Shown here one piece after another: positions 1 through 25,591 of a stretch of DNA of 64,000 nt. The DNA is taken from assembly GCF_022829285.1 (NCBI RefSeq), contig NZ_JAKSYI010000069.1, forward strand, positions 186,001 through 250,000. Reading direction: 5' to 3'. The position numbers and the translations under genes are program-made. Each line of letters begins with the position of its first letter. The first letter of the stretch is position 1. The notes below the pieces were generated by a model. That model was not told the DNA's origin. It saw nothing but the letters and a program-made list of their open reading frames with translations, and did no database searches. This DNA is from Methylobacterium sp. J-078 (GTDB lineage Bacteria; Pseudomonadota; Alphaproteobacteria; Rhizobiales; Beijerinckiaceae).

Positions 1-793
1 CGCCCGCGATGGACGCGACCGCCTCCTCCAGGGCCGCCATGAAGGCGGCGTGGACGGTCGGATTGGCCTCCACGAAGGCGGCGGAAGCCCAGACCACGTT
101 GAAGGTCGAGGGACCGCCGAGCACGTCGAAGGTGTTCAGGATCGTCCGGATGCCGGGCCGGCGCAGCTCCAGTTCCTGGATCGGCGCGGCGGTGAAATGC
201 GCGCTCACCTCCTGGCCCGCCAGGAGGGCCGCCATGCCGTCCGGATGCGACAGGGTCACGGTCAGGCGGTCGAGATCGTTCCGCCGGGCCTCCCCGAGTT
301 CCTTCTCGGCCGCCATCTGCAGGAACATGGCCTGGACCGAGACCTTCACGGCGGGCAGGGCGATCTTATCCCGGTCGGTGAAATCGGCGAGCGACCGAAT
401 GCGGTCCACGTTCGTGTTCATGAGGAGCGGCATGGCGTTCATCGCCGCCACACCCTTCACCGCCATGCCGGTCCCATCGGTCTTCGACCAGAGCAGGACG
501 AGGGGCGGCACGCCACCGGCCACGAACTGGACCGAGCCGGACAGGAGCGCGTCGTTCATCGCAGCCCCGCCCGCGAGAGTGACGAAGCGGGCGCCGAGGC
601 CGGGCAGGCCCTTCGCCGCCGCGTGCTTCCGGAGCAGACCCTGTTCTTCCATGATCATCAACGGCAAGTGCCCCAGGCTCGGCTGGCGCGCGACGACGAC
701 CTCCTGCACCTCGGCGCGTGCGGGCCGCAGGCCGCCGAGGAGGGGCAGGCCCGCGCCGAGCAGCCCCCCGGCCAGAACGTCGCGTCGGCGCAT
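1..793 (-). CDS. NitT/TauT-type ABC transporter substrate-binding protein (3' end off window)
   Basis: Periplasmic binding protein of the sulfonate/nitrate/taurine (SsuA/TauA-like) family, cut by the left window edge after about 264 codons. I read it on the minus strand from the ATG at 793. The N-terminus starts MRRRDVLAGG, a twin-arginine-like signal followed by a hydrophobic stretch and a possible ARA cleavage site near residue 27. The body follows the second binding protein at 7293-8312 closely (shared LLSG, VKGVAAMNAMPL, DKIALP, LQMAAEK, FDVLGGP and VWAS blocks), so the two are paralogues. It is the last visible gene of the minus-strand operon, 40 nt after the ThDP enzyme. The ATPase and permease would have to lie further left. 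The ligand cannot be told from sequence. Confidence 0.8.
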   Translation of the reverse strand, partial: MRRRDVLAGGLLGAGLPLLGGLRPARAEVQEVVVARQPSLGHLPLMIMEEQGLLRKHAAAKGLPGLGARFVTLAGGAAMNDALLSGSVQFVAGGVPPLVLLWSKTDGTGMAVKGVAAMNAMPLLMNTNVDRIRSLADFTDRDKIALPAVKVSVQAMFLQMAAEKELGEARRNDLDRLTVTLSHPDGMAALLAGQEVSAHFTAAPIQELELRRPGIRTILNTFDVLGGPSTFNVVWASAAFVEANPTVHAAFMAALEEAVASIAG

Positions 794-833
794 GTGAACC
801 TCCCTGGGTCGAAACCGTGGTGGGGATGTGCAG

Positions 834-2462
834 TCAGCCCGCTTTCGGCCGGCGGATGACGGGGGCCGGCACGCTCTCGATCAGCACGTTGAGGCAGGCC
901 GGGAGGCCGCTGGCATGGGCCTCCTCCAGGGCCTGCGGCAGATCCTCGGCCCGGGTGACGAGGGCGCCGTGGCCGCCGAGCGCCGTCACGACACGATCGT
1001 AGCGCGAACTCAGCAGGTCGCAGTGGCGCGCCCGCTCCGGCCCGTAGTTGCGGAGCTGGATCTGGTACTCGGCGTTCCAGCGGGCGTCGTTGCCCACCAC
1101 CGCGATGAAGGGCAGGCCGTAGCGCACGGCGGTGTCGAACTCGGCCATGTGGAAGCCGAAGGTGCCGTCCCCCAGGATCGCCACGATGGGTACCGCTGGG
1201 TCGTGGAGCCGGGCCGCCAGGGCGAAGGGCAGCGACGCGCCGATGGTGCCCGAGACACCGTTGATGAGACGTCGGGACGCCTGCACCAGGGCCTGGGGCC
1301 ATTGTCCGATCTCGCCGCCGTCACAGATCAGGGTGCCACCGGGATGCTGGTCGAGGAAGGCGGCGACGCCGCGGCACAGCTCGACCGGGTGGAGGCGGCC
1401 CTCCGCGCCGCGCCGATCATCCCAGTCCGGGGGGCGGTATGCCACCGCCGCCCGCACGGCGGCGTGCCAGTCGGTCCGGTCGCCAGGGCGGCGGGTGTCG
1501 AAGTATCGGGCGAGGGCCGCGAGTGTCGGCAGTGCATCGGCCGTGCCCGAGACCGAGAGGCGGGCCGGATCGACCCGCGCGGCAAGCGCGGGATCGGGGT
1601 CGACGATGACGAAGCGGCAGTCCGGCGCCACCGCAGGCGCCTCGCCGAACTTCAGGGTGAAGTCGAGGGGCTTGCCGACGAGCACGAGGCAGTCGGCCTG
1701 GGCCAGCACCTCGGCGAAGGCGCCGAGGCTCGGATCGTTGAGGCCGCGCGGGCTCTCCATGCCGAGGACGGGCACGCCCGAGGCCGCCTCCAGCGCAGGC
1801 ATCCGGGCGCGGCCCTCGGTGCCGCAGGCGACCGGGCCGCACAGGATCAGAGGGCGCCGCGCCCGGCCGAGCTCCACCGCCACGGCCTCGACGAGGTTGG
1901 CGCCGGGCTCTTCGATCCGCGGCGTGGCGTCGGGAGGAGGCGACGGTACGGCCGAAGCGGGCGCCTCCAGGAGATCGACCGGGAGGCTCAAGTGGACGGG
2001 CCCCGGCCGGCCCTCCCGGGCGAGGCGCATGGCCCGGGCGACGTCGTCGGCGAGCGTCTCGACGGAGGCGGCTGTCCACGAGGCTTTGGTCATCGGGCGG
2101 GCGATGTCGGCCTGGGCGAGTTCCTGGAACGCGCCGCGCCCGATTTCGGACAGGCCGGCATGGCCGGAGAGGAGGAGGACCGGGCTTTCGGCGGCGAGCG
2201 CCGTGAACAGGGCGGCGGCGCCGTTCGTCTGCCCCTGGCCGCCGGTGACCAGGGCGACTCCGACCTCGCCGGTCAGGCGCCCCCAGGCATCGGCCATGTG
2301 CACGCAGGCGGCCTCCTGGCGGACATGCACCACCGCGATGTTCGTGCCCAGCAGGGCATCGAAGATCGGCATGATGTGGTTGCCCGACAGGGTGAAGATG
2401 CGGCGGACGCCGAGGCGCTCCAGGGTCTCGACGACGATGTCGGCTCCGCGCGGCTGGCCCAT
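834..2462 (-). CDS. ThDP-dependent enzyme, acetolactate synthase/decarboxylase family
   Basis: 542-aa thiamine diphosphate enzyme of the IlvB/oxalyl-CoA decarboxylase/sulfopyruvate decarboxylase superfamily. The N-terminal PYR domain carries the activating Glu at about residue 50 (HVRQEAA). The central domain is the FAD/CoA-like fold. The C-terminal PP domain has the Mg-ThDP motif GDGTF near residue 431 and the matching Asn at about 458. It differs from the genuine IlvB at 38600: it lacks the AHAS-type C-terminus and has no small subunit beside it, so branched-chain synthesis is unlikely. It is in the same operon as the Sdh/Frd-like and fumarase genes, which suggests a role on a 2-oxo acid or CoA ester made from the imported substrate. 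The exact reaction is unknown. Confidence 0.8.
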   Translation of the reverse strand: MGQPRGADIVVETLERLGVRRIFTLSGNHIMPIFDALLGTNIAVVHVRQEAACVHMADAWGRLTGEVGVALVTGGQGQTNGAAALFTALAAESPVLLLSGHAGLSEIGRGAFQELAQADIARPMTKASWTAASVETLADDVARAMRLAREGRPGPVHLSLPVDLLEAPASAVPSPPPDATPRIEEPGANLVEAVAVELGRARRPLILCGPVACGTEGRARMPALEAASGVPVLGMESPRGLNDPSLGAFAEVLAQADCLVLVGKPLDFTLKFGEAPAVAPDCRFVIVDPDPALAARVDPARLSVSGTADALPTLAALARYFDTRRPGDRTDWHAAVRAAVAYRPPDWDDRRGAEGRLHPVELCRGVAAFLDQHPGGTLICDGGEIGQWPQALVQASRRLINGVSGTIGASLPFALAARLHDPAVPIVAILGDGTFGFHMAEFDTAVRYGLPFIAVVGNDARWNAEYQIQLRNYGPERARHCDLLSSRYDRVVTALGGHGALVTRAEDLPQALEEAHASGLPACLNVLIESVPAPVIRRPKAG

Positions 2463-2503
2463 GGCGTTCGTCCCTCAAGATCCGGCGTAGGGGGAAAGCG
2501 GCC

Positions 2504-4234
2504 TCAGGCCGCCGCGTCGAGGAGGGATTCGCCGGGCCGCACATGCGTGAAGGCGACGGGCTCCAGGGAGACGTCGAGGCCGTCCGCTCCCTGGCGCACC
2601 ACGGTGTAGTGCGAGGTGGCGAGATCCGAAGCGTCGGGGAAGTCCTCGCGGAAATGCGCTCCGCGGCTGTCGGTGCGGGCCAGCGCCGCGGCCTGGATCG
2701 ACCGGCTGACGAGGACGAGGTTCTCGAGGTTGAGCCGGTCCATCCAGGTGAGGTTGTAGCGGCGGTCGCCGTCGGGGATGCCCGCCTCCGTCACCGCAGC
2801 CGCGAGGGCGTCGAGGCGCTCGCCGGCCCGCGCCAGCCCGGCCGCGTCGCGCAGGATGCCGACATCGTCCCACATGCTCGCGTAGAGGGCCTCCCGGATC
2901 GCTCCGAGGTCCCCGGCCGGGCGCCCCAGGGGGCCGTAGGCGCGGGCGAGCCCCGCCTCCACCGCGTGAGGATCGGGCTCGGCCAGATGCCTCACACCCC
3001 GAATGTCGCGGGCCATGGCGGCGCCGGCGAGCCCTCCGAACACCGTCGAGTTGGCGACGCCGTTGCCGCCGAGGCGGTTGGCCCCGTGCACCCCGCCGGT
3101 ATCCTCCCCGGCCGCGTAGAGGCGCGGCAGCTCGGTGCCGCATCCGGGGCGGAAGGCGACGCCGCCCATCATGTAATGGGCGGTGGGGATGACCTCGACC
3201 CGGCCCCCGGCGAGGTCGAAGCCGCAATCGGCGCAGCGCTCGACCATGCCCTTGAACTTGCGCCGCACGTCCTCGGGTCCGAGATGGCTCATCTGGATGT
3301 AGACCCCGCCATGCGGGGTGGCGTGGCCCTCGCGGATGCGCCGCATGATCGAGCGGCTCACCACGTCGCGCGTCGCCCGCTCCGCGCGCGGGTCGTAGTG
3401 GTGCATGAAGCGCTCGCCCGAGGCATCGAGCAGGTAGCCGCCCGCGCCCCGCAGGCCCTCCTCCAGTACCGTGCCGGTCATCCGGGTGCCGGCCCCCGCC
3501 AGCAGGCCGGTGGGATGGAACTGGACCATCTCCATGTCGCGCAAGGGGAGCCCGACGCGGAGCGCCATGGCGAGCCCGTCGCAGGTCTTATCGCCCGAGG
3601 GCGTGTGGAACTTGTACATCGTCGGGCCGCCGCCCGTGGCGAGCAGGGTCGCCCTGGCGCGGACCAGGACCGGGATCCCGGTCCGCATGTCGACCATCAG
3701 CACGCCGGCGAGGCCGCTTCCGTCGGCGGCCGGAATCAATTCGAGGGCGCGGTGATCCTCCAGGCGCCGGACGTCGCGGCGCCAGACCTGCTCGGACAGG
3801 CGGTTGACGATCTCGATACCGGTGAGGTCGCCCTTGTGCACGGTGCGGTCGAAGGTCTGGCCGGCGAAGGCCTTCTGGTGGACGCTGCCGTCGGGGTTGC
3901 GGTCGAAGAAACAGCCGAGCTCTGTTTCCAGCTCGCGGATGCGGACCTGCGCCTCCGTGACCAGGGTCCAGGCCAGCTCCTGGTTGTTGAGCCACTTGCC
4001 GCCCTCGATCGTGTCCATGAAGTGGCGCTCGACCGAATCGCCCGGGGCGAGGGCAACGTTGTAGCCGCCCTGGACCATGCGGGTGCAGCCGCACTTGCCG
4101 AGCAATCCCTTGACCGCGATGGTGACCTCGAGCTCGGGCGCGGTCTTCTTGGCGTGGAGGGCCGCGAACAGGCCCGCCCCGCCGGAGCCGAGGATCAGGA
4201 TGTCCGTCTCGACCATCGTCAGGCTGGCGTGCAT
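2504..4234 (-). CDS. Succinate dehydrogenase/fumarate reductase-like flavoprotein subunit, non-covalent FAD type
   Basis: 576-aa FAD subunit of the SdhA/FrdA family. Visible are the Rossmann motif GSGGAG (residues 16-21), QFHPTG, the active-site block EEGLRGAGGYLLD with the catalytic Arg, PTAHYMMGG, and GANRLGGNG near the C-terminal FAD/substrate site. In classical SdhA/FrdA an SHTVAAQGG-type segment carries the His that covalently binds FAD. Here the aligned segment is CGCTRMVQGG and the His position is Cys50, so FAD is probably bound non-covalently. Known His mutants of this family keep fumarate reduction but largely lose succinate oxidation, so a reductase role is possible (inference). The ATG overlaps the fumarase beta stop in a TGATG junction, which supports translational coupling. 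Confidence 0.85.
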   Translation of the reverse strand: MHASLTMVETDILILGSGGAGLFAALHAKKTAPELEVTIAVKGLLGKCGCTRMVQGGYNVALAPGDSVERHFMDTIEGGKWLNNQELAWTLVTEAQVRIRELETELGCFFDRNPDGSVHQKAFAGQTFDRTVHKGDLTGIEIVNRLSEQVWRRDVRRLEDHRALELIPAADGSGLAGVLMVDMRTGIPVLVRARATLLATGGGPTMYKFHTPSGDKTCDGLAMALRVGLPLRDMEMVQFHPTGLLAGAGTRMTGTVLEEGLRGAGGYLLDASGERFMHHYDPRAERATRDVVSRSIMRRIREGHATPHGGVYIQMSHLGPEDVRRKFKGMVERCADCGFDLAGGRVEVIPTAHYMMGGVAFRPGCGTELPRLYAAGEDTGGVHGANRLGGNGVANSTVFGGLAGAAMARDIRGVRHLAEPDPHAVEAGLARAYGPLGRPAGDLGAIREALYASMWDDVGILRDAAGLARAGERLDALAAAVTEAGIPDGDRRYNLTWMDRLNLENLVLVSRSIQAAALARTDSRGAHFREDFPDASDLATSHYTVVRQGADGLDVSLEPVAFTHVRPGESLLDAAA

Positions 4235-4839
4235 CAGACGGCTCCCAGGCTCTCGATGATGGCGTCGCGCCGGCTGGCGACGTCGCGCTGGACGTCGGCG
4301 AAGAGCGAACCGCCGTGAGAATCCATGCCGACGAGGAGCGGGCCGAAATCGTGGATCGCGAACTTCCACAGGCTCTCGGGGTGGAGGTCGTCGAGGTCGA
4401 TGTCCTCGATCCGCTCGATCCAGGTGGTCTCCAGGGCAGCGGCGCCGCCGACGATGGCGAGGTAGGCGCCGCCGTGCTCGGCGAAGGCCGCGAGGGTGAG
4501 GGGGCCCATGCCGCCCTTGCCGACGATGAGGCGCACGCCCTCGCGGCGCATCAGCGCGTCGGTGAAGCGCTCCATCCGCATGGAGGTGGTGGTGCCGATG
4601 CAGAACGGCGCGTAGCCGACGGGGGCGTCCGCCGAGACCGGCACCCGGTGGACGTTGGGCGCGGTGTGGATCACGGCGTGGCCGGTCAGATCGAGATGCG
4701 TCCGGCGCTCCCGGTCAAACATGTGGATCAGGGTGGCGTCGCGGATGCCGAACAGGGTTTTCCGCAGGGTGACGGTGTCGCCGACCTTCAGGGCGCGGAC
4801 CTGCGCCGCGTCGATCGGCATGTCGAGAACGTGGTGCAT
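4234..4839 (-). CDS. Class I fumarate hydratase-like, beta (C-terminal) subunit
   Basis: 201-aa beta subunit of two-subunit class I hydro-lyases (FumA/B C-terminal domain, TtdB-like). It starts MHHVLDMPID at 4839, preceded by GGGAGG. It contains the family blocks GDTVTLRKTLFGIRDAT, HAVIHTAPNV, GYAPFCIGTTTSMRM and GKGGMGPLTL. Together with the alpha subunit just upstream it should form a [4Fe-4S] dehydratase for fumarate/malate, L-tartrate or mesaconate; the family is broad and sequence alone does not pick one. Length matches TtdB-type subunits of about 200 aa. Its stop overlaps the flavoprotein start by one base. The flavoprotein beside it could interconvert fumarate and succinate. Confidence 0.85.
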   Translation of the reverse strand: MHHVLDMPIDAAQVRALKVGDTVTLRKTLFGIRDATLIHMFDRERRTHLDLTGHAVIHTAPNVHRVPVSADAPVGYAPFCIGTTTSMRMERFTDALMRREGVRLIVGKGGMGPLTLAAFAEHGGAYLAIVGGAAALETTWIERIEDIDLDDLHPESLWKFAIHDFGPLLVGMDSHGGSLFADVQRDVASRRDAIIESLGAV

Positions 4840-4880
4840 GGCGCGGCCCTCCCGGCGGTGGCGTCGATACGGCGTTCGGA

Positions 4881-5753
4881 TCAGTCGAAGGCGATACCGC
4901 CGGGGGTGAAGGTCGCCTTGGCCCGGCGGGCCGAGTGGCACTGGATGTTCACCGCCACCGGGTTCTGGGTGATGTGCGTCGCGGCGATCTCCACATGGAC
5001 GGCGAAGCTGGTGGAGCGCCCGCCGAGTCCCTGGGGGCCGATGCCGAGCTCGTTGACGGCGCGCGACAGCTCCGCCTCGATCCGGGCGCCCTCCGGGTCG
5101 GAGCAGGCCGAGCGCAGCTTGCGCGTGGCCGCCACCTTGGCGAGGTGCATGCACAGGTCCGAGGTGCCGCCGATGCCGACGCCCACGATGGTCGGCGGGC
5201 AGACGCGGCCGCCGAGTTCGATCACCCGGTCGATGACGAAGCGCTTGACCGCGTTGATGCCGTCGGAGGGCAGGAGCATCTGAAGAAACGAGCCGTTCTC
5301 CGAGCCCGAGCCCTTCGGAATCATCTCGACCGACACGGTCTCGGGCCGATCGTCGAAATCCACGTGGATGATCGGCACGCGGATGCCGCAGGAGGTCTGC
5401 TCGTTCACACGCGTGATCGGGTGGACCACCGAGGAGCGCAGGGAGTGCTCGGTGGTGGCGCGGGCGCAGCCGCACCGGATGGCGGCCTTGAGGTCGGCGC
5501 CGTCGAAGCGCACGTCGCGCCCGATCGTCACGTTGTAGATCGGGATGCCGGTGTCCTGGCACAGGATGTTCTTGGTGCGCTCGGCCACCGCGATGTTCTC
5601 GACCATGGTGCCGAGGATCGCCCGGCCGGTGGCGCTGGTCTCCTCCCGCGCGAGATCGGCAAAGCCCGCCTTGATGTCCGGGGGCAGCAGCTTCAGGGCG
5701 CGGACGTAGAGGTCCCTGCACACCACTTCGACTTCGGTGAGGTCGAGGTCCAT
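4881..5753 (-). CDS. Class I fumarate hydratase-like, alpha (N-terminal) subunit
   Basis: 290-aa alpha subunit of a class I iron-sulfur hydro-lyase (FumA N-terminal domain, TtdA-like). The three Cys expected to hold the [4Fe-4S] cluster are present: C65 in LCQDTG, C185 in GRVCPP and C272 in NIQCHSARR, matching C105, C224 and C318 of E. coli FumA by motif. The start is the ATG at 5753, preceded by AAGGAG at good spacing; a longer open frame upstream is low-complexity and lacks homology. The gene lies 47 nt after the membrane-anchor gene and 41 nt before the beta subunit. Oxygen-sensitive, cytoplasmic enzyme by family. Confidence 0.87.
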   Translation of the reverse strand: MDLDLTEVEVVCRDLYVRALKLLPPDIKAGFADLAREETSATGRAILGTMVENIAVAERTKNILCQDTGIPIYNVTIGRDVRFDGADLKAAIRCGCARATTEHSLRSSVVHPITRVNEQTSCGIRVPIIHVDFDDRPETVSVEMIPKGSGSENGSFLQMLLPSDGINAVKRFVIDRVIELGGRVCPPTIVGVGIGGTSDLCMHLAKVAATRKLRSACSDPEGARIEAELSRAVNELGIGPQGLGGRSTSFAVHVEIAATHITQNPVAVNIQCHSARRAKATFTPGGIAFD

Positions 5754-5800
5754 GCCGGTCTCCTTGAATGAGGGTTGGAGGGCGTTGCGTCCGGGCGGAG

Positions 5801-6181
5801 TCAGGCGCCGCCGAGGAGGAACAGGAGCCCCACAGCCAGGCTGACCGCCACGCAGACCGAGACGATGAGTGCCGTATGCTCGTGGGTGGCGAACCACTCG
5901 AGGGCGAGCACGCGCAACCCGAGGACGAGGTGCAGGGCGAGCGCGCTGACGAGGCCCCATTCGGCCATGCGCACGAAGCCGTTATGGGTCAGCCCGAGGA
6001 AGCTCTCGAAACGATCTGCTCCCTGAAGCGCAGTCCCGAGGGCGATGAAGTGCATCGGCAGGAACAGGGCCAGGGCGACCCCCGAGAGGCGATGCAGCAA
6101 AGCGGCGGCGAAGCCCGCGCGCAGACGGGCCGCCTGGAGGGCGCCACGCCGGGGGAGGGCGGTCTGCGTCCCGGCGCTCAT
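5801..6181 (-). CDS. Succinate dehydrogenase/fumarate reductase cytochrome b (SdhC-like) anchor
   Basis: 126-aa integral membrane subunit with three predicted hydrophobic helices. It carries the SdhC signature HRLSGVALA near residue 30 and a second block HLVLGLRVLALEW around residue 100, where a His can ligate heme b. It anchors the flavoprotein/Fe-S dimer to the cytoplasmic membrane and passes electrons to or from quinone. Its ATG (6181) overlaps the stop of the other anchor gene by 4 nt. The companion protein 6178-6507 has the same H-x3-GLR-x2-L-x-EW pattern, so the two anchors look like an old duplication. Confidence 0.8.
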   Translation of the reverse strand: MSAGTQTALPRRGALQAARLRAGFAAALLHRLSGVALALFLPMHFIALGTALQGADRFESFLGLTHNGFVRMAEWGLVSALALHLVLGLRVLALEWFATHEHTALIVSVCVAVSLAVGLLFLLGGA

Positions 6182-6507
6182 GCGACGTACACCGCGAGGG
6201 CGGCGTGCAGGCCGAGGACGAGGAGGAGGGCCGCGACGGCGAGCATCGCCCCGTCGAGGGAGCGTCCGCGCCAGGGCGTCCACTCGCGCAGGATGCTGCG
6301 CAGACCGATGGGCGCGTGGATCGCCGCCGCCACGACGAAGACGTTGTAGAACACGAAGAAGGCCAGGTTGCCCTGCGTCCGGCCCAGGATCTCGCCGGCG
6401 GTCAGGCCGCCGCGCACGGCGTACAGGATCGTGCCGAGATGCACCGCCACCGCCACCGCGAGGATCACCGCGGTGCCGCGCTGGGCCACGTAGAGGAGCG
6501 GGCTCAT
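6178..6507 (-). CDS. Succinate dehydrogenase/fumarate reductase membrane anchor (second SdhC/D-like subunit)
   Basis: 109-aa three-helix membrane protein, start MSPLLYVAQRG at 6507. It contains HAPIGLRSILREW, matching the helix II heme/quinone motif of SdhC/SdhD-type subunits. It overlaps the Fe-S subunit stop by 4 nt (ATGA) upstream and the SdhC-like gene by 4 nt downstream, so it belongs to the same complex. Length and three-helix topology fit the small anchors of two-anchor (type A/C-like) complexes. Whether heme is actually bound cannot be seen. Confidence 0.75.
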   Translation of the reverse strand: MSPLLYVAQRGTAVILAVAVAVHLGTILYAVRGGLTAGEILGRTQGNLAFFVFYNVFVVAAAIHAPIGLRSILREWTPWRGRSLDGAMLAVAALLLVLGLHAALAVYVA

Positions 6508-7289
6508 GCCGACCTCCGGAAGTGCCGCGCGCCGAAGCGCTTCAGGGCGGACCGGGAGGTGGCGCGCTTCAGGCCCGCGATGGCGAAGGTCGGCGCCAGA
6601 GCCTTCGGACAATGTTCCGTGCAGCTCATGTGGGTGTGGCAGGACTGGCAGCCCCCATCCCCGGACACGGCCTCCAGCCGCGCGTCCTGCCCTCGGTCGC
6701 GGACGTCGTTGACCAGGGTCCAGGCCCGGTTGAGGGCGGCCGGCCCGAGATAGTCGGGGTTCCAGGTGACCACGTCGCAGGCGGCGTAGCAGACGCCGCA
6801 ATTGATGCACTCGATGCCGGCATCCACCGCGCGACGCTCGGGCGAATCCGGGGCAACCACCGCGAAGTCGTCGAGCGGCGCGGCGCCCGGCTCGAAGGCG
6901 CCGTGGGCGGCCGTCCATTTCTGGAAGAACGGCTCCATGTCGACGGCCAGATCCTTGACCACCGGTAGGTTGCGCAGGGGTTCCAGGGTCAGGCCGTCGT
7001 TCTCCGCCACCGCCGCGACCCGGGTGCGGCAGGTCCAGCGCGGGCGGCCGTTCACCGTCATGGCGCAGGAGCCGCACATGCCGACCCGGCAGGCGAAGCG
7101 GTAGGCCAGGGTCGGGTCCTGCTCGCGCTGGATCTCGGTGACCACGTCGAGGACGGTCTGGGCCGGGCGCCGCGCCACGGTGAAGGCCTGGAATCCATCG
7201 TCCCGCCGGATGCGCACCGTCAGTGTCGCGTACGGCGCGGCTTCGATCGTGGGATCGGCCAGGGACGCGGTGGGAACCGGGGCGTTCAT
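6504..7289 (-). CDS. Succinate dehydrogenase/fumarate reductase-like iron-sulfur subunit
   Basis: 261-aa SdhB/FrdB-type protein. The N-terminal ferredoxin fold has the [2Fe-2S] ligands C67, C72, C75 and C87 (CRVGMCGSC then C). The C-terminal domain has C161-x2-C164-x2-C167-x3-C171 and CHTHMSCTEHCPKALAP (C217, C223, C227) for the [4Fe-4S] and [3Fe-4S] clusters. It relays electrons between the flavoprotein at 2504-4234 and the two membrane anchors that follow. Unusually, the flavoprotein gene is separated from it by the anchors and the fumarase genes. It starts 3 nt after the stop of the upstream binding-protein gene. Confidence 0.88.
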   Translation of the reverse strand: MNAPVPTASLADPTIEAAPYATLTVRIRRDDGFQAFTVARRPAQTVLDVVTEIQREQDPTLAYRFACRVGMCGSCAMTVNGRPRWTCRTRVAAVAENDGLTLEPLRNLPVVKDLAVDMEPFFQKWTAAHGAFEPGAAPLDDFAVVAPDSPERRAVDAGIECINCGVCYAACDVVTWNPDYLGPAALNRAWTLVNDVRDRGQDARLEAVSGDGGCQSCHTHMSCTEHCPKALAPTFAIAGLKRATSRSALKRFGARHFRRSA

Positions 7290-7292
7290 GCC

Positions 7293-8312
7293 TCAGCGCT
7301 CCGCCTTGGCGGCGGCGCCGGGAAAGAACAGCTCGCCCTGATCCGTGGCCTTGGCAGGCACGAGGCCGGCGCGGTTCATGTAGTCGAGATAGGCCAGCAT
7401 GTTCAAGGGCGCGCTGGTCCACTGGGTCTGCGGCGCGCGGATGATCTCGATCGCCTCTGCCTCGGTCAGCCGGGCATTCTCCGCCTTGATCCACAGGGCC
7501 GCCACCTTGGCGGGCTCCGCCTTGATCAGCGCCAAGCTCTCATCGAGGGCGCCCCGGAAAGCCGCGACGATCTTCGGGTTGGCCGTGACGAAGCGGTTGC
7601 TCGCCCAGACGAGGTTGAAGGTGTGGGGGCCGCCCAGCACGTCGTAGCTGTCGAGCACCTTGCGGGCGCGCGAGTCCTTCAGCTCCATTTCCTGGAACGG
7701 CGGCGAGCCGAAATGCGCGGTGATCTCCGAGCGACCGCCGAGCATCGCCGTCTGCGCGTCGGGATGGCCCATCGAGACCGTCAGCGGATCGAGCTTTCCT
7801 TGCTGGCCGGGGCCGAAGGCCTTCTCGGCGGCCATCTGCAGGGTGATGGCCTGGATCGAACTCTTCACCGTCGGCAGGGCGATCTTGTCCTTCTCGGTGA
7901 AGTCCTTGATCGACTTGACTGCCGGATTCACGCTCACCAGCCAGAGCGGCATGGCGTTCAGGGCCGCCACGCCCTTGACCTGCAGGTTGCCCCGGGTGCG
8001 CCCCCAGATCGTCAGCATCGGTCCGACCCCACCGGCGGCGAAATCGAGGTTTCCCGACAACAGGGCCTCGTTCATGCCGGAGCCGCCGGTGAAGCGCAGC
8101 CACTCGGTCTTCAGTTCAAGGCCCTGCTGGCGGGCGTGTTTCTCGAGGAGCTTCTCCTCCTCCATCACGGTGAGCGGCAGGTAGGAGATGCCGAACTGCT
8201 TGGCGAGGCGCACCATCGAGGCCTCCGCCTGGGCGGCGCCCGAGGCAGTCAGTAGGGTCGCCGAGACCAGGGCCGCGGCTCCGCAGAGCCGGATGAGACG
8301 CCCGAGCGCCAT
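7293..8312 (-). CDS. NitT/TauT-type ABC transporter substrate-binding protein
   Basis: 339-aa periplasmic binding protein of the SsuA/TauA/NrtA-like family and first gene of the minus-strand operon. It has a Sec signal peptide with AQA near residue 29, then YLPLTVMEEEKLLEKHA, typical of the first lobe of these proteins. It is a paralogue of the protein at 1-793 (about half of aligned positions look identical by eye). The start ATG at 8312 has GGAGGA just upstream. Two similar binding proteins in one operon could bind related ligands or serve one permease off the window. The ligand is unknown; family members bind sulfonates, nitrate, pyrimidine precursors or aromatic acids. Confidence 0.85.
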   Translation of the reverse strand: MALGRLIRLCGAAALVSATLLTASGAAQAEASMVRLAKQFGISYLPLTVMEEEKLLEKHARQQGLELKTEWLRFTGGSGMNEALLSGNLDFAAGGVGPMLTIWGRTRGNLQVKGVAALNAMPLWLVSVNPAVKSIKDFTEKDKIALPTVKSSIQAITLQMAAEKAFGPGQQGKLDPLTVSMGHPDAQTAMLGGRSEITAHFGSPPFQEMELKDSRARKVLDSYDVLGGPHTFNLVWASNRFVTANPKIVAAFRGALDESLALIKAEPAKVAALWIKAENARLTEAEAIEIIRAPQTQWTSAPLNMLAYLDYMNRAGLVPAKATDQGELFFPGAAAKAER

Positions 8313-8393
8313 GTGTTCCTCCTGCGTAGGCCCGAATTCTCTGGTCCGGTGCCGAGGGCCACGATAGCCTCGTCGCGACCGCTGTCAACGGTC

Positions 8394-8404
8394 ATATGTC
8401 ATAT
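8394..8404. promoter_or_regulatory. Possible operator palindrome upstream of the binding-protein/Frd-like operon
   Basis: ATATG-T-CATAT, a perfect 5-bp inverted repeat around one base, in an AT-rich island (about 8389-8406) within GC-rich DNA. It lies about 80 bp upstream of the first gene of the minus-strand operon. Size and position suit a GntR- or LysR-type regulator, but no regulator gene is visible beside it. Confidence 0.35.
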
Positions 8405-8587
8405 ACATGAGTTGCCGATGGCGAACCGTACCAGCACCTTCCCTGGCCCCCCGGCACACCCCGAGAGGACGGGGCCGGCCGAACCCCTGGCGAGCCGCCC
8501 ACTCTATCTGCAGGCGCGCGACCCGGCGTCGTCGCCGCCATCAACGAGTAATCGTCCGTCCAAACGGTCAATCTGCAGGGAACGATT

Positions 8588-23602: not shown

Positions 23603-24478
23603 GTGTCGAATGCTCGGAATCCGCTCGCCGGTGTGCTGCGGTGGAGCTTGGGTGATCTGACGATCACGGTGATGAACGACGGCTACCTGCAAGGGTCGCT
23701 CGACCTCGTCACCGGGATTCCCCGCGACGAGGCCGGCGCCCTCCAGGCCGCCGGCTTTCGCGCGCAGGATCCCCGGATCACGCTGAACGCGTTTCTGATC
23801 ACCGGTCCGGGGCGCAAGCCGCTGCTGATCGATTCGGGGATGGGCAGCTTCGGCGGCCCCACCCTCGGCCGCGTCCCGGCCGCCCTCCAGGCGGCGGGCG
23901 TCGCGCCCGAATCCATCGAGACCGTCCTGCTGACGCACCTGCACCCCGACCATGCCGGCGGCCTGCTCGCCGGCGACGGGATCGCGGCCTACCCGAACGC
24001 CGAACTCGTGGTGCATGCCGACGAGGCGGCGCACTGGCTCGACGACGGTGCCCTCGCGCGGGCGCCGGACGGGGCCAAGCCCTATTTCGACATGGCCCGC
24101 AAGGCGACCGCTCCCTATGCCGGGCGCCTGCGGACGATGACCGGCGGCACCGTGGCGCCGGGTATCGAGGCCGTGCCGCTGCCCGGGCATACGCCGGGGC
24201 ATACCGGCTACCGGATCACCTCGGGCGACGCGTCGCTTTTGATGTGGGCGGACATCGTTCACCTGCCGGCGATCCAGTTCAAGCAGCCGGAAGCCGGTAT
24301 GGTGTTCGACACCGACGGCGACCAGGCACGGGCCGTGCGTCGGCGCATGCTCGACGTAGTGGCCAGCGACCGCACCTTCGTGGCGGGCGCGCATCTCGAA
24401 TTCCCCGCCCTGGGCTACGTCGCCCGGGACGGTGCCGCCTACAGTTTCGTTCCGGAACTCTGGGTCGCGGCACAGTAA
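23603..24478 (+). CDS. Metallo-beta-lactamase-fold hydrolase inserted between rpsK and rpoA
   Basis: 291-aa MBL-fold hydrolase. The metal motif HLHPDHAGG (H112, H114, D116, H117) is followed by [12 protein letters not shown] and a bridging Asp in MWADIVHLP, so a dinuclear site is intact. No signal peptide is seen. It resembles AHL lactonase/quinolinase-like MBL proteins of about 290 aa, but the substrate is unknown. It starts at a GTG (23603) with GGAG 7 nt upstream. It lies between rpsK and rpoA in the same direction and must be co-transcribed with them or hold its own promoter; it is not part of the standard alpha operon. Confidence 0.85.
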
Positions 24479-24571
24479 CCCTGAGCCCGACCGGCGCCGG
24501 AGGCGCGGTGTCGACGGGCAATTGCGTGGGCCGCCCTCGTGGCCCGCGCCGATCTTGCGAGAGGTAGCATC

Positions 24572-25591
24572 GTGGTCATTCAGAAGAACTGGCAAGAGCT
24601 CATCAAGCCGAACAAGCTTCAGGTCTCGACCGGACACGACCCCAAGCGGGTCGCCACCGTCGTCGCCGAGCCCCTGGAGCGCGGCTTCGGCACCACCCTC
24701 GGCAACTCCCTGCGCCGGGTGCTGCTCTCCTCGCTCCAGGGCGCGGCCGTGACCTCGGTGCAGATCGACGGCGTGCTGCACGAATTCTCGTCGATCCCGG
24801 GCGTGCGCGAGGACGTCACCGACATCGTCCTCAACATCAAGACCATCGCCATCCGCTCGCAGACCGAGGCACCGAAGCGCCTCACCCTGCGCAAGACCGG
24901 CCCGGGCACCGTCACCGCCGGTGACATCGGCACCGTGGGCGACGTCCAGATCCTCAACCCCGACCTCGTCATCTGCACCCTCGACGACGGTGCCGAGATC
25001 CGGATGGAATTCACCGTCGCCACCGGCAAGGGCTACGTCCCGGCCGAGCGCAACCGCCCCGAGGACGCCCCCATCGGCCTGATCCCGGTGGACGCCCTGT
25101 TCTCGCCCGTCACCAAGGTCAGCTACCGCATCGAGACCACCCGCGAGGGCCAGGATCTCGACAAGGACAAGCTGACGATGACCATCGAGACCAACGGCGC
25201 GGTCACGCCGGAGGACGCGCTCGCCTACGCCGCGCGCATCATCCAGGACCAGCTCCAGGTGTTCGTGAACTTCGAGGAGCCCCGCAAGGAGGAGGCGCAG
25301 CCGCTCGCGCCGCAGCTCCCCTTCAACCCGGCCCTGCTCAAGAAGGTCGACGAGCTCGAGCTCTCGGTGCGTTCGGCGAACTGCCTGAAGAACGACAACA
25401 TCGTCTACATCGGCGACCTCATCCAGAAGTCGGAGGGCGAGATGCTGCGCACCCCGAACTTCGGTCGCAAGTCGCTCAACGAGATCAAGGAAGTGCTCGC
25501 CGCCATGGGCCTGCACCTCGGCATGGACATCCCCGGCTGGCCGCCGGAGAACATCGAAGACCTCGCCAAGCGCTTCGAAGAGCACTACTAA
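24572..25591 (+). CDS. rpoA: DNA-directed RNA polymerase subunit alpha
   Basis: 339 aa from a GTG at 24572 ([17 protein letters not shown]), GAGAGGT upstream; the 11 codons before it are not conserved. N-terminal assembly domain with [17 protein letters not shown], and C-terminal domain with [16 protein letters not shown] and [17 protein letters not shown] that binds UP elements and activators. Essential. Followed by a 188-nt gap with two hairpins before rplQ. Confidence 0.97.

Follow-up and report, generated by a model that had tools for sequence, protein, structure and literature searches.

A complex II and fumarase-like operon of Methylobacterium sp. J-078 as a probable sulfonate counterpart of the succinate-to-malate span

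Introduction

Why would a bacterium keep a second complex II of the succinate dehydrogenase/fumarate reductase (Sdh/Frd) type, together with a two-subunit iron-sulfur (Fe-S) fumarase-like enzyme, between two substrate-binding proteins (SBP1 and SBP2, 45% identical to each other)? This question is raised by nine genes in a 64,000-nucleotide stretch of the draft genome of Methylobacterium sp. J-078 (contig C9:186001-250000 of a 5.54 Mb genome; hereafter the window), whose nearest named relatives among the matches listed are Methylobacterium. Besides SBP1 and SBP2, the genes encode FrdA, FrdB, two membrane anchors, the hydro-lyase subunits FumA and FumB, and a thiamine diphosphate (ThDP)-dependent enzyme. 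A sequence-only reading had proposed that an imported acid is processed by the ThDP enzyme and the fumarase, with the Frd-like complex as electron sink or source. Here we propose that the operon is the sulfonate counterpart of the succinate to fumarate to malate span of the tricarboxylic acid (TCA) cycle, probably with 3-sulfopropionate as its substrate. A role in the catabolism of C3 sulfonates through the sulfolactate branch is very likely.

A route from 3-sulfopropionate via sulfoacrylate to sulfolactate was described for Roseovarius nubinhibens in the thesis of J. Mayer, as cited in PMC11489063. It has the same three intermediates as our proposal, but the citing passage names no genes or enzymes. 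According to the available part of this 2024 paper, gut fermenters make 3-sulfopropionate from dihydroxypropanesulfonate and from homotaurine, and bacterial degradation of 3-sulfopropionate is unreported except in that thesis; the Bilophila route is called unclear in the available part of a 2026 review (PMC12890257). Genes for 3-sulfopropionate dehydrogenation or sulfoacrylate hydration are not named in the accessible portions of PMC11489063, PMC12421959, PMC11659671, PMC5320631, PMC12890257 and PMC12330013, all open-licence literature.

Results

The operon is not the TCA set of the genome

All nine genes lie on the minus strand, and adjacent genes share 4, 4 and 1 nt or are separated by gaps of 3-47 nt, as the sequence-only reading had described; this spacing is compatible with one operon. 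Eight of the nine gene families that it named were confirmed by Pfam or NCBIfam models, while anchor 1 is named only from its match to an annotated M. radiotolerans anchor (Table 1). If this were the only sdh/fum set, it would simply be the TCA cycle enzyme. However, a canonical SdhA, 36% identical to the operon FrdA, is encoded on contig C128 with a FrdB-like neighbour, and a FumC above its curated cut-off lies on contig C82. The operon is therefore not the TCA set. FrdA orthologues with at least 68% identity were found in eight of 99 genomes of the family (own genome included), and FrdA was found in 32 of 385 genomes of the class (E<=1e-120) and in 18 plasmid records (E<=1e-100), which belong to proteobacteria, Rhodococcus and two haloarchaea. 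The FrdA orthologue is thus an accessory gene.

An auxiliary TCA or C4-dicarboxylate set (for fumarate, tartrate or mesaconate) that merely travels with sulfonate genes would agree with the families, which are those of Sdh/Frd and fumarase/tartrate dehydratase, and with the DctA-type carrier of the cluster described below. The presence of the canonical SdhA and FumC argues against such a set.

FrdA belongs to a clade with an altered active site

We aligned FrdA from 170 loci, of which 169 gave a row (L125, which has no FrdA, was left out). Rows with at least 45% identity to the window FrdA, a label set before residues were counted, form a single clade in the tree (128 rows, support 0.999), which includes some duplicates from the same contigs (L034/L049 and L038/L055). 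Compared to E. coli SdhA, His45 is replaced by Cys, Thr254 by Glu, Ser404 by Gly and Gly120 by Ala in 128/128 clade rows; the equivalents of His45 and Thr254 in the window FrdA are C50 and E258. Of the 42 other complex II rows, 38 retain His45 and 39 retain Thr254. From work on the E. coli enzyme we take His45 to be the residue that binds flavin adenine dinucleotide (FAD) covalently and Thr254 to be part of the substrate pocket. His242, Glu255, Arg286, His354 and Arg399 (E. coli SdhA numbering), presumably the catalytic residues, are kept in all 128 rows. Since the catalytic residues are kept and the FAD-histidine and pocket threonine are replaced, FrdA should remain able to dehydrogenate or reduce a dianion resembling succinate, with its pocket and flavin attachment altered. 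The complex thus resembles known complex II in its flavoprotein, iron-sulfur and two anchor subunits and in its catalytic His, Arg and Glu residues, but differs in the Cys, Glu and Gly substitutions and in forming a separate clade. The two substitutions at His45 and Thr254 speak against an auxiliary TCA set. In Paracoccus pantotrophus DSM 11072 (L220, pPAN3), the match to the FrdA query (59%) is confined to query residues 194-572 and coincides with no listed gene; this copy may be truncated or frameshifted.

Sulfolactate genes lie beside frdA in relatives

To describe the neighbourhood of frdA in relatives, we used the best 80 loci from a scan of named genomes, which are a sample spanning several classes, and 20 canonical sdhA neighbourhoods as controls, all from one family. 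Partners were counted by tblastn with M. radiotolerans queries (HpsN from C. pinatubonensis) at identity thresholds of our own choice, and gene calls in these stretches came from a simple scorer of GC by codon position, which misses genes. Within the 80 loci we found FrdB in 68, FumA in 66, FumB in 70, SuyA in 41, SuyB in 39, ComC in 40, SlcC in 35, the ThDP enzyme in 19 and HpsN in 8, and each of these partners in 0/20 of the controls. At least one of SuyB, SlcC, ComC and HpsN was present in 51/80 loci compared to 0/20 canonical sdhA neighbourhoods. Among the 45 loci that span at least 19 kb, 32 had at least one of these four, and 18 had all of SuyA, SuyB, SlcC and ComC. Such a linkage, absent from the controls, is again not what an auxiliary TCA set would lead one to expect. 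The gene order that the sequence-only reading had picked out, with frdA after fumAB and away from frdB, is present in the window. FrdB, FrdA and a FumA could all be placed in 64 of the 80 loci; the order recurs there as B..Fum..A in 62, and the other two have B..A..Fum.

On pMRAD01 of M. radiotolerans JCM 2831, one stretch carries SBP-FrdB-anchor-anchor-FumA-FumB-FrdA-ThDP-SBP followed by TauE, SuyA, SuyB, DctA, SlcC, ComC and GntR, and the annotation of these includes UxaA family hydrolases, an NAD(P)-dependent oxidoreductase and an Ldh family oxidoreductase. Of the first seven loci, four have confirmed TauE/SafE-family genes. Two Paracoccus plasmids have FrdB-anchor-anchor-FrdA-FumA-FumB with TauE near, and a third has the six genes with no TauE listed in its stretch. 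The HpsN-like protein of L037 matches a solved sulfopropanediol 3-dehydrogenase (E 8.8e-202). Across the clusters, importers of the ATP-binding cassette (ABC), tripartite, TRAP and DctA types were found.

Two further genes were seen in these stretches. In L211, a sulfite-oxidase-family gene (7458-8561) lies between FumB and the ThDP enzyme, and its best model is SorA (167 bits, under the cut-off of 600). In a Sulfitobacter plasmid stretch (L126), a gene near the edge (24415-25587) is annotated as 3-sulfinopropanoyl-CoA desulfinase.

The rest of the proposed pathway is encoded in the same genome

Contig C76 of the same genome carries tauE-suyAB-dctA-slcC-comC-gntR-sorA. The identities to the M. 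radiotolerans proteins are 78% for TauE, 85% for SuyA, 92% for SuyB, 87% for DctA, 80% for SlcC, 78% for ComC and 72% for GntR, and the sulfite dehydrogenase SorA scores 656 bits, above the cut-off of 600. We use the name SuyAB because SuyB is 66-68% identical to that of the pair in a C. pinatubonensis operon with annotated hpsN and hpsO; the C76 pair itself has 66.8% for SuyB and 47% for SuyA, and the other GD_AH_C protein of the genome is about 30% identical. The only PDB match of SuyB is galactarate dehydratase (129.6 bits). The best NCBIfam match of ComC is sulfolactate dehydrogenase (164.9 bits, cut-off 500), and SlcC, which has D-isomer 2-hydroxyacid dehydrogenase domains only, owes its name to its location next to ComC and SuyAB. 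On contig C82, an intact GntR/UTRA gene is found together with an ABC permease and an ABC ATPase.

In the 385 class genomes, FrdA occurs in 32, SuyB in 34 and both in 20, where 2.8 would be expected (Fisher p=1.6e-16, a test that ignores shared ancestry). The SuyAB/SlcC/ComC module thus accompanies the FrdA clade in relatives and also occurs in the own genome. Its known form starts at sulfolactate, and the Frd-like complex and the fumarase-like enzyme would lie upstream of it. As sulfolactate and sulfopyruvate, the substrates of SuyAB, SlcC and ComC, are the sulfonate analogues of malate and oxaloacetate, the upstream fumarase would use sulfoacrylate and the complex II enzyme 3-sulfopropionate.

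A palindrome is shared by the three loci

A common palindrome emerged from a comparison of upstream regions. Four distinct places in the 5.54 Mb carry the pattern TCWTRTAYAWGAC: one upstream of the window operon, two in the tauE-suyA interval of C76 and one ahead of gntR on C82. As the pattern was derived from the sites that were later counted, this count is not independent proof; the argument for the palindrome comes from its rarity and its position in relatives. The reversed control pattern has no occurrence in the genome, and the shuffle expectation was 0.00 in both the window and the C76 stretch. A 12-base core is also present before the SBP gene and suyA in M. radiotolerans and before suyA in L034 and C. 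pinatubonensis, and no exact match was found in 201/224 loci. We regard the palindrome as a candidate site for the GntR/UTRA regulators. Its sharing between the operon and suyAB is a further point against an auxiliary TCA set.

Positions 8192-8523 of the window, which hold the SBP1 start, the palindrome and the GntR start, are 96.7% identical over 332 nt to positions 1-332 of C82 (L225), and the GntR gene is truncated in the window copy and intact on C82. Because of this repeat, and with only one FrdA of the clade in the genome, the operon seems to have been moved next to ribosomal genes. By eye, a ribosomal-protein gene cluster begins right of the operon on the opposite strand.

Different hydratases accompany the same FrdA clade

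FumA has three cysteines aligned with those of E. coli FumA, presumably the Fe-S cluster ligands, and FumAB shares Arg and Lys motifs with E. coli FumA and TtdB. The enzyme is like class I fumarase/L(+)-tartrate dehydratase in these cysteines and in a FumA above the NCBIfam fumarate hydratase cut-off. In contrast, the window FumB is under the NCBIfam cut-offs shown, and the gene pair sits with sulfolactate genes. The same FrdA clade is accompanied by differing hydratases: the window type, the G049 type (32% identity) and an ArgH-like type in Haloarcula and Natribaculum. That one clade has several hydratase types suggests a hydration step after the dehydrogenase.

The haloarchaeal plasmids (L129, L152) carry FrdA-FrdB with the ArgH-like gene, TauE and a UxaA (SuyAB-like) pair; neither anchor subunits nor a class I fumarase are listed in these stretches. 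XcbC of bacterial coenzyme M synthesis makes sulfoacrylate, and the Haloarcula ArgH-like protein, the only one scanned, matches the XcbC model. However, its 257 bits are below the cut-off of 575, the argH score is higher (323 bits, above the cut-off of 279.5), and XcbC is absent from the window. We therefore rejected it as a true XcbC and keep the match as suggestive only. Enolase-superfamily proteins of the mandelate racemase/muconate lactonizing type were seen beside the FrdA set in L059 (5682-6782) and L076 (5679-6782) by eye, and in L126 (15320-16459) with Pfam confirmation.

The ThDP enzyme is accessory

The sequence-only reading had made the ThDP enzyme a core step. It was found in 19/80 loci and in 6/32 FrdA-bearing genomes of the class sample, and none of the 25 NCBIfam families shown reached its curated cut-off. 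HdaclCoAlyACT gave 289 bits (cut-off 600) and Xsc 149 (cut-off 676), so the enzyme scores below the curated level for both 2-hydroxyacyl-CoA lyase and sulfoacetaldehyde acetyltransferase. A role as substitute for SuyAB was rejected: there is no anti-correlation (SuyB in 8/15 long loci with and 20/30 without the ThDP enzyme; p=0.52, 45 long loci), and M. radiotolerans carries both. A sulfopyruvate decarboxylase feeding Xsc was rejected as well, since the own genome has no Xsc match at E<=1e-100. We regard the ThDP enzyme as accessory. What stands of the earlier proposal is the import of an acid and its handling, outside the TCA cycle, by a Frd-like complex and a class I fumarase; the compounds it suggested for testing included sulfonates.

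Coordinates and surroundings

The features of the operon are listed in Table 1. The open reading frame (ORF) of SBP2 (338 aa) ends at L002:13777 (contig position 185777), 224 nt beyond the window edge. Further out, larC- and larB-like genes (PF01969, PF00731; L002 9774-12525) were seen, and between these two, on the opposite strand, lies a larE-like gene that has no Pfam match. LarA racemase was considered as a pathway enzyme and dropped, as a scan of the genome for Lar_N gave no match (E<=0.001).

Table 1. Features of the operon and its upstream region (window coordinates)
Feature	Position	Strand	Basis
SBP1, NMT1/SsuA-like substrate-binding protein	7293..8312	-	PF09084 just above cut-off; SsuA model E 2.7e-22, under curated cut-off
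FrdB, Sdh/Frd-type iron-sulfur subunit	6504..7289	-	TIGR00384 190.8 bits, cut-off 88
Membrane anchor 1	6178..6507	-	86% match to M. radiotolerans gene annotated succinate dehydrogenase membrane anchor
Membrane anchor 2, Sdh cytochrome type	5801..6181	-	PF01127; TIGR02970 55.6 bits, cut-off 52.3
FumA, class I (Fe-S) hydro-lyase alpha subunit, proposed sulfoacrylate hydratase	4881..5753	-	PF05681 290.7 bits; NF004885 fumarate hydratase 293.8 bits, cut-off 276 (longer reading of the frame)
FumB, beta subunit of the FumA hydro-lyase	4234..4839	-	PF05683 104.7 bits, cut-off 22.2; aligned with E. coli TtdB and FumA
FrdA flavoprotein, proposed 3-sulfopropionate dehydrogenase, C50 and E258	2504..4234	-	PF00890, PF02910; clade residues; tree
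ThDP-dependent enzyme, accessory	834..2462	-	three TPP enzyme domains (Pfam)
SBP2, NMT1-like substrate-binding protein, in-window part	2..793	-	PF13379 27.3 bits, cut-off 24.7; whole ORF 338 aa
Candidate operator palindrome TCWTRTAYAWGAC	8398..8410	-	about 86 nt upstream of SBP1 start
GntR-family gene remnant, about 35 codons, divergent from operon	8418..8523	+	96.7% identity over 332 nt to start of contig C82

Discussion

Beyond the sequence-only reading, the link to SuyAB, SlcC, ComC and TauE, the shared palindrome and the clade-specific active-site changes were decisive for our proposal. From gene content, clade residues, linkage, co-occurrence and the shared site we infer the substrate, the direction, each reaction and the pairing of regulator and site. 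SBP1 and SBP2 would work with the ABC ATPase and permease of C82 in the uptake of a C3 sulfonate, for which 3-sulfopropionate is the most likely candidate. The FrdA-FrdB-anchor complex would oxidise 3-sulfopropionate to 3-sulfoacrylate and pass the electrons to quinone, and the two-subunit Fe-S fumarase-like enzyme would hydrate 3-sulfoacrylate to 3-sulfolactate. SlcC and ComC of C76 would interconvert the sulfolactate enantiomers via sulfopyruvate, SuyAB would free sulfite and leave pyruvate, and sulfite would be exported by TauE and oxidised by SorA. GntR/UTRA regulators acting on the common palindrome may control the three loci jointly.

Several observations weigh against this pathway. None of SuyA, SuyB, SlcC and ComC was found in 13/45 long loci, and SuyB is absent from 12/32 FrdA genomes, of which 6 have Xsc, the other known desulfonating enzyme (a count taken without a background rate for Xsc), and 6 have neither. 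The long loci L059 and L076 lack an Fe-S hydratase, and the exact palindrome is present in only 15/80 relative loci. Homotaurine or aldehyde feeder genes for making 3-sulfopropionate were also considered and rejected: aldehyde dehydrogenases appeared near FrdA only singly (MPC6, NT-26), with no recognised cluster in at least 5 loci. Finally, in E. coli enzymes the loss of the FAD-histidine impairs succinate oxidation and spares fumarate reduction, which could favour the reductive direction.

In that reverse direction, sulfolactate would lose water to give sulfoacrylate, which quinol would then reduce to 3-sulfopropionate; the route would serve as an electron sink, and its product would be exported. 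The TauE-family genes could serve as exporters, and in the available text of PMC11489063 one of them is proposed as a 3-sulfopropionate exporter of E. gilvus. However, SuyAB, SlcC and ComC with SorA adjacent make sulfolactate a carbon source to oxidise, and the clusters contain several importer types. We consider the reverse direction unlikely.

Another succinate-like C3 or C4 sulfur acid, for instance 3-sulfinopropionate or sulfosuccinate, could be the substrate instead, as the pocket changes do not name one and a 3-sulfinopropanoyl-CoA desulfinase is annotated in the Sulfitobacter stretch. This desulfinase was seen in one stretch only, close to its edge, whereas SuyAB, SlcC and ComC are described on sulfolactate and sulfopyruvate in the available part of PMC12421959, directly fitting the hydration of sulfoacrylate. 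A different sulfur acid is thus quite improbable.

The available part of PMC12421959 also reports an increase, on sulfofucose, of a 'fumarate and tartrate' cluster that includes a TauE homologue, with sulfolactate as an intermediate, and the authors of that paper suggest a link to the Krebs cycle. We expect this P. wurundjeri proteomics cluster to be the same kind of set. If so, it ties the set to sulfolactate metabolism and does not fix the direction, so that it would also agree with the reverse route. The Krebs-cycle link would suit an auxiliary TCA set; given the points raised against that explanation in the Results, we hold it to be very improbable. Our proposal of 3-sulfopropionate breakdown offers a new reading of this published cluster.

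More tentatively, and with some doubt on our side, the complex II member may have been re-tooled for sulfonates with an 8-alpha-S-cysteinyl FAD on the invariant cysteine instead of the usual histidine, oxidising 3-sulfopropionate to sulfoacrylate. Together with a dedicated hydratase it would form a sulfonate imitation of the succinate-to-malate arc, one that ranges from proteobacteria to Rhodococcus and haloarchaea. The cysteinyl FAD in FrdA is a speculation that can be tested. To our knowledge a cysteinyl flavin linkage is not known in complex II, and we found no paper in the open-licence literature that treats cysteinyl FAD together with fumarate reductase. If Cys50 does carry the flavin, the linkage would, as far as we know, be new to complex II. 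C50 and E258 are diagnostic residues to seek elsewhere, and the cluster offers candidate genes for both missing steps of 3-sulfopropionate breakdown.

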